Below, in pieces: positions 24,221 to 53,310 of a stretch of 64,000 nucleotides of DNA; position 1 is the stretch's first letter, and every line of letters begins with the position of its first letter. A program made the position numbers and the translations under genes. Source of the DNA: Candidatus Korarchaeum sp. (lineage in GTDB: Archaea > Korarchaeota > Korarchaeia > Korarchaeales > Korarchaeaceae); the NCBI GenBank assembly GCA_038888615.1, contig JAWAID010000001.1:1-64000 (forward strand), read 5' to 3'. Under the pieces are notes generated by a model. That model ran no database searches. It had not been told where the DNA came from and saw only the letters and a list, made by a program, of their open reading frames with translations.

Positions 24221-25270
24221 TTGAGCTTAATGCTACACAAGTTTAGGAGAGATCAGTACGCTGATTACATCATAAGAGCTGTCAGAGAGGACTCTCCCTG
24301 GATGATCGACATTAGAGGTGGTCTCTCAATTCTATTACTAAGAGACCTCGATGTGGATGGTAATCAGGTAAAGAGTGGGCTCCTAGTGGATTTTCGACCA
24401 TCTCCCGATGCGAGTAGATCCGGCAGATTGAGTCCCATGGTACTAGTGAGGGATGGAGATAGCTGGAGGATAGTAGACTCCATATGGACTCTCGGGAGGA
24501 TAGCTGGTGGTACTGTAGCCTCTGCTTTCTCCCAGAACCCATCGATACTTCTAGATCCCCTCTCCTCGGCAGCTGTCGTGAGAAGGGTCCTCCCTAGGAT
24601 TAAAGACATCGGGATCTGGCAGGGCTCCGACTTCACCGAGATCCTGCAGTATCAAGCGGAGTCCTCGGTGATGGGTGAGAGGTCCGGGGAGGAGATACAG
24701 CTATTACTCGAATCTATCCTGAGCTATTTGAAGGATGATGGTGTGAGCGTGTCGGGGAATATTAACATACTATTGGGGAGCTGGTCCGTTGAGGAGTTCA
24801 GGAGGCAGTTCTCAGTAGGACTTGAGGTGATTAGGGTTATTGAGGACGAAGCCCAAGCTCTCTACGATGGGATATACCAGCTAGTTAGAGTTGACGAATT
24901 CGTTTCCTTAAGGAGAGATGAGTTCAACCTTCTAGGGGAAAATGCGGAAGTATCTCAATCCGTCTCACTTGGCTGGATCTTCTACTCTTTCGAGAGAAAT
25001 CCCTCAGGAGAGGGTCTGAGCAGGGAGTATTATAATGAGCTCGGTAGGGTCCCCGTGGAAATCGAACTGGATCTCGATGATACCGCAGGGTGGAAGAGGG
25101 TGATGGTGCATTGCACCAGAGCTATACTGAACGACTGGTTATCGAAGAAGAAGGACTTGATAGAAGAGGAGCCGGAGATCAACAGGAAGAGTGAAACCCT
25201 CAGTAGAATGTTGAGGAACGTCTTAGGGCAGGAGTACAGCCTTAGCGGTAGCTTAGAGGGGTTCTTCTAA
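24221..25270 (+). CDS. Unrecognised soluble protein, 349 residues (weakly NurA-like)
   Basis: The protein is soluble and acidic. Features seen are FRRDQYADYIIRAVRED at the N-terminus, SGLLVDFRPSPDASRSG in the middle of the first third, and a C-terminal helical region with CTRAILNDWLSKKKDL. The alternation of beta-rich segments and the late EIELDLDDTAGWKRVMVHC stretch is reminiscent of NurA-type nucleases, but the catalytic Asp motif near the start is not clearly present, and no HerA gene is adjacent. I therefore leave function open. A TATA-like gttatatact (about 24178-24187) and GGGAGGTG just before TTG 24221 support expression; ATG 24230 is the alternative start. Confidence 0.6.
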   Translation: MSLMLHKFRRDQYADYIIRAVREDSPWMIDIRGGLSILLLRDLDVDGNQVKSGLLVDFRPSPDASRSGRLSPMVLVRDGDSWRIVDSIWTLGRIAGGTVASAFSQNPSILLDPLSSAAVVRRVLPRIKDIGIWQGSDFTEILQYQAESSVMGERSGEEIQLLLESILSYLKDDGVSVSGNINILLGSWSVEEFRRQFSVGLEVIRVIEDEAQALYDGIYQLVRVDEFVSLRRDEFNLLGENAEVSQSVSLGWIFYSFERNPSGEGLSREYYNELGRVPVEIELDLDDTAGWKRVMVHCTRAILNDWLSKKKDLIEEEPEINRKSETLSRMLRNVLGQEYSLSGSLEGFF

Positions 25271-25689: not shown

Positions 25690-26082
25690 ATGGTGAGGGC
25701 CTTCGAGTACCATGTGATAGGTGAGCTCCTTGGTATCAACAGAGATCTACTAGAAAGCATTGAGTTCGTGGAGAGCGCCCTCATAGAATCCGTCCTAAGC
25801 TCCGGGTTAACATTATTCGACGTTCTTACTAAGAGAAAACCCAATGGAGGAGTTCTGAGCATCGCGATAATAGGGGAGTCTCACGCTGCAGTTCATACAT
25901 GGCCCGAATCGAGGAGCGTAACTGTCTCGATATCCTCCTGCAAGGACTCACCGAGCACCTGGAAGGTATTCTGGGAGTTAAAGAGGATCTTCGGGGCAAC
26001 CGATCACAAAGCGATGGAGCTGAGGAGCGGAATTTTACTCTTAGAGAGGATCGAAAGGGGATTGATAGAGACCCTGGTATGA
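25690..26082 (+). CDS. speD: Pyruvoyl-dependent S-adenosylmethionine decarboxylase-like enzyme
   Basis: The 130-residue protein has the self-cleavage motif IIGESHAAVHTWPE, where the Ser becomes the pyruvoyl group, and the downstream catalytic cysteine in SISSCKDS. Length and motif order fit bacterial/archaeal class 1 AdoMet decarboxylases, which make decarboxylated AdoMet for spermidine synthesis. Related archaeal proteins have changed specificity to arginine, so substrate is uncertain. The PYGVSG segment usual before the motif is replaced by PNGGVLS. GTG 25678 is an alternative start. It is convergent with cas6, 3 bp apart. A second, catalytically degenerate family member lies at 52942. Confidence 0.82.
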   Translation: MVRAFEYHVIGELLGINRDLLESIEFVESALIESVLSSGLTLFDVLTKRKPNGGVLSIAIIGESHAAVHTWPESRSVTVSISSCKDSPSTWKVFWELKRIFGATDHKAMELRSGILLLERIERGLIETLV

Positions 26083-26085
26083 CCC

Positions 26086-26901
26086 TCACTTCCTCTTGAC
26101 CTCGAACCTGATCCTCCCAAAGCCCATGTTCCTCATGTGACCCACGCCTATCAGTTCCCCGAACATGAGCAGCGTGTTGAGCCAAGTGGCCATCTCCTCG
26201 TGAGATGATCTATGCCACTCGGGATGGTCTATCACCTTGTAGTTCACCCAACCCAAGAAACCGACGAACGTCTTCTCCCCACCCATCTCGACTGGCTTCG
26301 TTGTGCAGAGCTCATAGCCAGTTTCCACGACACTCAGATCAGCCCATGTTGCTATTAACCTAGTCTCTGGACCTTTCTTCGGGGAAAGCGCGTTCCAGGC
26401 TGATGCTAAGGAGGAGATCACCATTCTAGGGTTAGGGTAGAGGTAACAGTACTGTGAAGTAGCTCTCCTGAAGCAGGTAGGGGTCAGGAAGCGTAGCCTG
26501 AAGTTCCTACAAGGCTTATCTTGAATGAAGTCTAATATGTTTATTTCTTGATATGTATAGCTGATAACTTTAAAAGGAATTTCTTTTATTGTTATGGTTG
26601 GTTTCTTAAATATCCATGATTTTATGGCCTCGCTCACGGTATCGTCATCGAATACTATTATGGAGCCCCTGTACTCGGAACCCATGTAAACAGGTTCCTC
26701 AAGGGATCCGCAGGGCATCTGCTTCCTCTCCCTCCTAAGAGCCTCGACGAATATCCTCTTGGAGGACATCTCCAGAGCTTTGGCTAACAAGGGGTCTTGT
26801 GATGATATGGATCTCAGTAGAGAAGCTCTAAAGAAGGGTCCTGTGAATGGTACCACGCCATCCTTCTGACTCGTCACTTCAACTTCGATTATCGAGATCA
26901 T
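26086..26901 (-). CDS. cas6: CRISPR repeat endoribonuclease Cas6 (orphan)
   Basis: The 271-residue protein shows the Cas6 double-RRM layout. The centre has the family's FRLRFLTPTCFRR segment (about 134-146) and YPNPRMVISSLASAWNAL. The C-terminal part has GYELCTTKPVEMGGEKT and FVGFLGWVNYKV, and ends in the glycine-rich loop GVGHMRNMGFGRI (about 253-265) that binds the repeat RNA. Cas6 cuts precursor crRNA at each repeat. No CRISPR array or other cas gene is in the window, so it must act on a distant array or have another RNA target. The catalytic histidine cannot be assigned with confidence. Confidence 0.86.
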   Translation of the reverse strand: MISIIEVEVTSQKDGVVPFTGPFFRASLLRSISSQDPLLAKALEMSSKRIFVEALRRERKQMPCGSLEEPVYMGSEYRGSIIVFDDDTVSEAIKSWIFKKPTITIKEIPFKVISYTYQEINILDFIQDKPCRNFRLRFLTPTCFRRATSQYCYLYPNPRMVISSLASAWNALSPKKGPETRLIATWADLSVVETGYELCTTKPVEMGGEKTFVGFLGWVNYKVIDHPEWHRSSHEEMATWLNTLLMFGELIGVGHMRNMGFGRIRFEVKRK

Positions 26902-52283: not shown

Positions 52284-52952
52284 TTGGTCAGGGTCACTTT
52301 CCTGGGACACTCCGCCTTCCTCCTGGAGGGTAGCAAGAGGGTCCTCATAGACCCTTGGATAGATGGAAACCCTCAATCCCCTATCAAACTCGAGGAATGC
52401 AGAGGTGCCGATGTGTACGTGATAACCCACGACCACGGCGACCATGGCCTCAGCGATGCCATTAGGCTCTCGAAAGCGCATGGAGGTACCGTCGTCTCCA
52501 TATACGAGATAGCGGAGAAGGCAAGGAGGGAAGGGGCGAACTCCTTGGGAGCGAACATAGGTAGTTTCTTCGAAGTTAACGGTGTGAGAGTGGTCCTCAC
52601 TGAGGCCTTACATAGTAGCGGCGTTGGAGCTCCGGTCGGTGCTGTGATAGAGCTCGATGGTAAGAGAGTGTACCATGCAGGGGACACGGGGGTCTTCTAC
52701 GATATGAGGATAATAGGGGAGCTCTACAGACCTGATCTTGCCCTACTTCCCATCGGAGGGCATTATGTGATGGGTCCCCTCGAAGCAAGCCTCGCCGTGG
52801 AGCTTTTAGGGGTGAGCAAGGTGATACCGATGCACTATCAGACCTTCCCGGTGCTCCAGGGCAAGCCTGAGGAGTTGAGGAGGTTACTGGAGAGCAGAGG
52901 ATTGAGGGCCGAGGTAATAGTACTTAAGCCAGGAGAGAGCTATGAGCTATGA
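52284..52952 (+). CDS. UPF0173 metallo-beta-lactamase-fold hydrolase
   Basis: The 222-residue protein has the MBL motifs: GHSAFLLEG (about 7-15), THDHGDHG (about 49-56, HxHxDH), ALHSSG (about 112-117), HAGDTG (about 131-136) and PMHYQTFP near 182. The two-zinc site is intact. The family's substrate is not established. Start is TTG. It overlaps the AdoMetDC-like gene by 11 bp in the same direction, implying translational coupling. Confidence 0.87.
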   Translation: MVRVTFLGHSAFLLEGSKRVLIDPWIDGNPQSPIKLEECRGADVYVITHDHGDHGLSDAIRLSKAHGGTVVSIYEIAEKARREGANSLGANIGSFFEVNGVRVVLTEALHSSGVGAPVGAVIELDGKRVYHAGDTGVFYDMRIIGELYRPDLALLPIGGHYVMGPLEASLAVELLGVSKVIPMHYQTFPVLQGKPEELRRLLESRGLRAEVIVLKPGESYEL

Positions 52953-53310
52953 TATAAAACCGAAGGAAGTCCAGGTAATAGCTGAGCTTTACGATGTAGT
53001 GGAAAGGGAGGTCTTGGATTCCCCAGGGAGGATGAGGAAGTTCCTCTTAGAAGTGGCCGCTGGTGCTCATGAGGAAGCCCTTCACGTGCACGTGCACGAA
53101 TTTGAGCCCTATGGTCTCAGCGGTTTCCTCATGACGAGCAAGGGTTACATTGCGATACACACTTGGCCCGAGCACTGCTACGCCACTGTCAACATCGTGA
53201 GTTTCTCGGATGCGGAGTGGTCCTGGAGGACCTATAAGGTGATCGTGGGGCTCCTGAGGCCTAGGCAGCAGAGCGCTGTAGAGATCAAGAGCGGATTGGA
53301 TTTCCAATGA
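52942..53310 (+). CDS. AdoMet decarboxylase-family protein without the pyruvoyl serine
   Basis: The 122-residue protein aligns over its full length with class 1 AdoMet decarboxylases (VAELYD-like start, EREVLDS, FEPYGLSGFL, AIHTWPEHCYATVNI). At the processing site, where SESH is expected five residues before HTWPE, it has SKGY: Glu is Lys, the pyruvoyl-forming Ser is Gly and the next His is Tyr. The later catalytic Cys is Phe (VSFSD). It cannot make pyruvoyl by the known route, so it is probably a regulatory partner or has a new role. Coupled to the MBL hydrolase; its end overlaps the convergent methylthiotransferase gene by 26 bp. Confidence 0.82.
   Translation: MSYDIKPKEVQVIAELYDVVEREVLDSPGRMRKFLLEVAAGAHEEALHVHVHEFEPYGLSGFLMTSKGYIAIHTWPEHCYATVNIVSFSDAEWSWRTYKVIVGLLRPRQQSAVEIKSGLDFQ

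Follow-up and report, generated by a model that had tools for sequence, protein, structure and literature searches.

Reciprocally degenerate AdoMet decarboxylase paralogues in Korarchaeia: a proposed heterodimer with one composite active site

What can a protein do that resembles AdoMet decarboxylases from end to end and has no serine from which a pyruvoyl group could be made? A gene for such a protein lies at 52942-53310 of the window, the 64,000-nucleotide stretch of Candidatus Korarchaeum sp. DNA analysed here, and a second member of the family lies at 25690-26082. A sequence-only reading took the second gene to be canonical and offered two roles for the first: a non-catalytic partner that activates its paralogue as the trypanosome prozyme does, or a new ligand-binding function. 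We refer to the paralogues as K (52942-53310) and C (25690-26082), and residues are given in Thermotoga maritima numbering unless stated otherwise. In class 1b AdoMet decarboxylases (AdoMetDC, SpeD) two chains lie face to face, each active site drawing on both. The bacterial or archaeal protein is a half-unit, two of which stack via their beta-sheet faces (PMC5201418).

RESULTS

K is a conserved AdoMet decarboxylase paralogue without the pyruvoyl site

The features of K and its immediate surroundings are as follows.

52284-52952, forward strand: UPF0173 metallo-hydrolase, directly upstream of K (NCBIfam PRK00685, 1.1e-69)
52942-52952, forward strand: 11 bp (ATGAGCTATGA) shared by the end of the hydrolase gene and the beginning of K
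52942-53310, forward strand: K, ORF of 122 aa with an ATG start; AdoMetDC paralogue without the pyruvoyl Ser, proposed active-site-donating subunit
53101-53121, forward strand: K F54-S60 (FEPYGLS), equivalent to T. maritima Phe49 and Ser55 and human Phe223 and Ser229 (PMC3975893); retained 21/21
53140-53148, forward strand: K K67-G68-Y69 in place of Glu62-Ser63-His64; pyruvoyl site gone
53158-53172, forward strand: K H73-E77 (HTWPE), equivalent to T. maritima His68 and Glu72 and human His243 and Glu247; retained 21/21
53203-53205, forward strand: K F88 in place of the catalytic Cys83

The relationship of K to class 1 AdoMet decarboxylases along its whole length was borne out by a Pfam AdoMet_dc match over residues 12-116 (6.9e-22) and by the PDB chains that align with it, those of T. 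maritima and A. aeolicus AdoMetDC; the class is 1b. NCBIfam TIGR03330 matches at 66.6 bits, under its equivalog cut-off of 75.65, and the top Foldseek match of an AF2 monomer model (pLDDT 91) is T. maritima AdoMetDC 1tlu. The FEPYGLSG and IHTWPE motifs are intact, and both the retention of PYGLSG and IHTWPE and the replacements described earlier (Glu-Ser-His by Lys-Gly-Tyr, catalytic Cys by Phe) can be read directly in the alignment. Each of the 21 orthologues has Gly at the position of Ser63, Tyr at that of His64 and Phe or Tyr at that of Cys83, so that an intact Glu-Ser-His motif occurs in none of them; Glu62 is absent from 18 and present in three.

K occurs in 21 genomes from four genera of one Korarchaeia family, and C in 18 of those same genomes; in the three K genomes without C the contig carrying K is too short to reach the syntenic position of C, about 26 kb away. 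In this 1.67-Mb genome K and C are the only two SpeD-family members, and a complete SpeD was not found. Pairwise dN/dS values (pairs with dS below 1.5) of 0.02-0.30 for K and 0.01-0.18 for C indicate purifying selection on both. In a maximum-likelihood tree K and C each form one clade (100/99 support each) and join as sisters at 96/63, a placement that is unsure because both branches are long. Outside the family, each of two relatives, G025 and G027 (loci L071 and L072), carries a single complete SpeD. From the matches listed by a scan that covered 84,980 species genomes, 70 non-Korarchaeal loci were kept, at most 39% identical to K, and every canonical domain examined among the matches listed has both Ser63 and Cys83. 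A search of phages gave no match to K. A diverged SpeD-like ORF of the 71%-complete genome G021 (L070:2098-2433), with QSH, the Cys present and Glu in place of His68, was set aside, as its flanks are unlike those of the syntenic loci and it may be contamination.

The paralogue at 25690 is half-degenerate

25690-26082, forward strand: C, pyruvoyl-forming AdoMetDC paralogue without the FxPxGxS loop, proposed catalytic subunit (Pfam AdoMet_dc, 3e-23)
25837-25857, forward strand: C K50-L56, where the equivalents of Phe49 and Ser55 are gone (here Lys and Leu)
25876-25884, forward strand: C E63-S64-H65, self-processing site intact; retained 18/18
25939-25941, forward strand: C C84, catalytic Cys; retained 18/18

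The description of this gene as canonical did not hold. Phe49 and Ser55, and with them the FxPxGxS motif, are missing from C in 18/18 orthologues. His68 is gone from four of the 18, which belong to only two outer genera, and the C of Methanodesulfokora, a genus of the same family, is without it; Glu72 has been lost in more genera. In some genomes, this one included, both His68 and Glu72 are present, and of the seven residues considered below only Phe49 and Ser55 are missing. TIGR03330 matches C at 68.4 bits, again under the equivalog cut-off of 75.65, and an AF2 monomer model (pLDDT 89) has T. maritima AdoMetDC 1vr7 as its top Foldseek match. Thus, the AdoMetDC fold and end-to-end sequence similarity were found for both K and C (Pfam, PDB profile search, Foldseek), while neither has the full class 1b residue set in one chain. 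If the pair proposed below is real, the annotation of both genes needs correction: neither would encode an AdoMet decarboxylase that is complete by itself, and it would be wrong to write K off as dead.

Two neighbours of C are recorded here. A Cas6 gene (26086-26901, reverse strand) lies tail to tail with it, and a Cas6 relative stands beside C in nearly all loci of the family. Upstream, a 349-aa protein (24221-25270, forward strand) has no Pfam match and is conserved family-wide.

K and C have lost opposite parts of the active site

We aligned 88 canonical domains with 21 K and 18 C sequences and counted residues column by column, positions being those of T. maritima.

Phe49: canonical 87/88, K 21/21, C 0/18
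Ser/Thr55: canonical 87/88, K 21/21, C 0/18
Glu62: canonical 84/88, K 3/21, C 18/18
Ser63 (pyruvoyl source): canonical 88/88, K 0/21, C 18/18
His68: canonical 88/88, K 21/21, C 14/18
Glu72: canonical 86/88, K 21/21, C 8/18
Cys83: canonical 88/88, K 0/21, C 18/18

Each of these seven catalytic or binding residues is fixed either in K or in C, and in the genera whose C is without His68, K retains it. With three retained residues drawn at random from seven, an exact complement is expected by chance with a probability of 1/35, a figure of modest weight on its own; what lends the complementarity weight is fixation across the 21 K and 18 C sequences together with the correspondence to human AdoMetDC described below. 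No general complementarity was detected over all 19 strongly conserved positions (Fisher test, p=0.25, not significant), because Asp79, Gly84 and Arg112 are gone from both K and C, and the claim therefore rests on the seven residues defined in the literature. In canonical SpeD each of the three doubly lost residues reaches 92% conservation or more (88/88 for Asp79), and they are perhaps needed only for the symmetric homodimer.

The human enzyme divides the seven residues in the same way

The bacterial or archaeal enzyme functions as a pair of identical chains, and the conserved residues of one such chain combine those that the eukaryotic chain distributes over its two halves (PMC1282579). In human AdoMetDC (AMD1, class 2) Glu67, Ser68 and Cys82 lie in the N-half and Phe223, Ser229, His243 and Glu247 in the C-half, as checked on the PDB chains; human Ser229 is equivalent to T. 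maritima Ser55 and human Ser68 to Ser63 (PMC3975893). This is the partition seen between our two genes, so that at all seven positions C is the counterpart of the N-half and K that of the C-half. The likeness between K and the human C-half extends to the lost pyruvoyl site, where both have Gly for Ser63 with a Tyr close behind (DGTYWTIHITPE in human, KGYIAIHTWPE in K). In the two-halved enzyme of animals and plants, AMD1 included, the halves are fused in one chain (PF01536), whereas here two unlinked genes stand 26 kb apart. A PF01536 search of these genomes gave no match, but its controls were silent as well.

A proposed C:K heterodimer

Since C lacks residues that K retains, half of the active site most likely comes from K, and since each is without a different half, the two are probably functional only as a pair. 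Judging from the residue pattern, we consider it likely that C and K are obligate partners in a heterodimer, in which a single active site built from both chains makes decarboxylated AdoMet. The ancestor of both would have been a homodimeric class 1b AdoMet decarboxylase whose copies decayed in opposite ways, leaving a whole active site only in the C:K heterodimer, at the face between the chains. C would contribute Glu63, Ser64 (the pyruvoyl source) and the catalytic Cys84, and K would contribute Phe54 and Ser60 of the FxPxGxS loop, His73 for pyruvoyl formation and Glu77 for binding the AdoMet ribose. Self-cleavage of C at Ser64 would yield the pyruvoyl group with the help of K, and the second, mirror-image site of the dimer would be dead. 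The second step in making the pyruvoyl group requires human His243, the equivalent of K His73 (PMC3975893). What we show is the residue pattern with its conservation, the co-occurrence of the two genes and their pathway context; the pairing of the chains, the dependence of C on K for processing and the identity of the substrate are inferred. The T. maritima S55A mutant still self-processes (PMC3975893), so a C homodimer could keep some activity where only Phe49 and Ser55 are missing. The distance of 26 kb between K and C, with no shared operon, counts against the pair.

The prozyme comparison made earlier is the best reading in outline, though probably not in the allosteric mechanism, since K retains the residues that C has lost. 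In the allosteric version C would be weak but self-sufficient, and K would shift its conformation and donate no residues. K does lack the pyruvoyl site, as the Trypanosoma brucei prozyme does (PMC5201418), and the two paralogues co-occur. However, C is everywhere without Phe49 and Ser55 and in some genera without His68 or Glu72, and K retains all four; substrate-binding residues are dispensable in an allosteric partner, and the T. brucei prozyme, an allosteric partner of an enzyme that has its active site in a single chain, has lost the ligand-binding residue Y243 (PMC5201418). The residue pattern thus favours active-site donation, and we regard the allosteric version as improbable. K would count as a prozyme in the broad sense, namely a subunit that originated as a duplicate of its partner and activates it (PMC3663545), if it is the partner of C.

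Polyamine context and substrate

An aminopropyltransferase-family protein is encoded in all 13 genomes checked, and this genome has a SpeE-type aminopropyltransferase together with a deoxyhypusine synthase. The former requires decarboxylated AdoMet and the latter spermidine. As no complete SpeD was found in this genome, the C:K pair is the only visible source of decarboxylated AdoMet, which would pass to the aminopropyltransferase (SpeE). K also retains the Glu that binds the AdoMet ribose and both central-region prolines, one of which is missing from C.

Arginine decarboxylation is possible as a second activity. According to a 2023 survey, AdoMet and arginine decarboxylases can be told apart by a single conserved Pro (PMC10407285). 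A division into two activities, with a C homodimer that decarboxylates a different amino acid, for instance arginine, alongside a C:K heterodimer acting on AdoMet, is in our judgement unlikely. It would agree with the repeated origin of SpeD-derived arginine and ornithine decarboxylases, as the survey describes it (PMC10407285), with agmatinase-family genes in 13/13 genomes and with the pyruvoyl arginine decarboxylase of the usual archaeal type (PF01862), which was not found in 10/13. Against it, C of some genera is without His68 and Glu72, and SpeD-derived arginine decarboxylases are, by the account of that survey (PMC10407285), little diverged from AdoMetDC, unlike C. The tRNA agmatidine synthetase TiaS, another known user of agmatine, was found in 0/13 genomes of Korarchaeia and close relatives, in a search whose controls worked, so that tRNA-Ile there apparently does without agmatine. 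Moreover, a diamine could come from a different enzyme. Directly downstream of the deoxyhypusine synthase gene on contig 2 of this genome (L192:1046-2080) is a relative of PLP decarboxylases, with weak matches to LysA and carboxynorspermidine decarboxylase, which is a candidate ornithine or arginine decarboxylase.

The UPF0173 hydrolase neighbour

The 11-bp overlap of K with the UPF0173 gene was confirmed at 52942-52952 and is exact in 14/14 congeneric orthologues compared; in other genera the two genes overlap differently or are separated by a short gap. The hydrolase lies directly upstream of K on the same strand at 21/21 K loci (this one and 20 relatives), so the pairing with a SpeD-like gene recurs in all the relatives that carry K. 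The regions covered around the lone SpeD gene of each outside relative do not contain the hydrolase. Thus, the earlier suggestion that K is coupled to a metallo-hydrolase stands for gene order, and shared expression is likely; a functional link is putative.

This constant neighbourhood, and the fact that K does not adjoin C, would suit a separate role for K as a ligand sensor or hydrolase partner that does not act with C. Such a role would leave unexplained both why K has kept exactly the residues C has lost and how C works without them, and we hold it to be very improbable. The new ligand-binding function proposed earlier is less likely for the same reason, as the residues that K retains are precisely the AdoMet-binding and processing residues missing from C. 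That K is a decaying pseudogene or a sequencing error, as its missing catalytic residues might suggest, is refuted by conservation, with identical substitutions and intact frames in 21 genomes of four genera under the purifying selection reported above, and has practically no chance of being right.

DISCUSSION

The proposed heterodimer of C and K can be set against several known systems. Class 1b SpeD (T. maritima TM0655, PDB 1tlu and 3iwc) has the same fold and chain length, and its full residue set is found across K and C together; known members are single genes whose products form homodimers with two active sites, whereas here neither chain is complete. The trypanosomatid AdoMetDC/prozyme likewise combines an active subunit with a pyruvoyl-less paralogue, although the heterodimer is only proposed for Korarchaeia. 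The trypanosome enzyme belongs to class 2 and is regulated by an allosteric switch, while K would instead complete the active site; given the different classes, the two origins are presumably independent.

Further parallels come from the 2023 survey (PMC10407285). A bacterial SpeD fusion described there similarly joins an intact and a degraded SpeD, but in one chain, a likeness drawn from the description only. Crenarchaeal pairs of a SpeD-derived arginine decarboxylase and an AdoMetDC are, as here, paralogues that share a single archaeal genome, but both are active pyruvoyl enzymes, unlike K (PMC10407285). The survey proposes that the eukaryotic enzyme arose by fusion to a half that was defunct, and it reports no such fusion found in archaea (PMC10407285).

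We think it reasonably likely that K and C represent a natural obligate heterodimeric archaeal AdoMetDC in which a homodimer with shared sites has been split into two reciprocally degenerate genes, a living, unfused counterpart of the stage presumed to precede the eukaryotic fusion, with an equal division of labour reached independently. A literature search, with most subscription journals outside its scope, found no published description of such a two-gene pair. If true, K and C would be a clear example from nature of complementary decay in duplicated subunits with a shared site, both becoming indispensable, and a real pair would bear on the origin of the eukaryotic AdoMet decarboxylase. The models of K and C also match human spermine synthase, presumably through its N-terminal AdoMetDC-like domain, a non-catalytic use of the fold.
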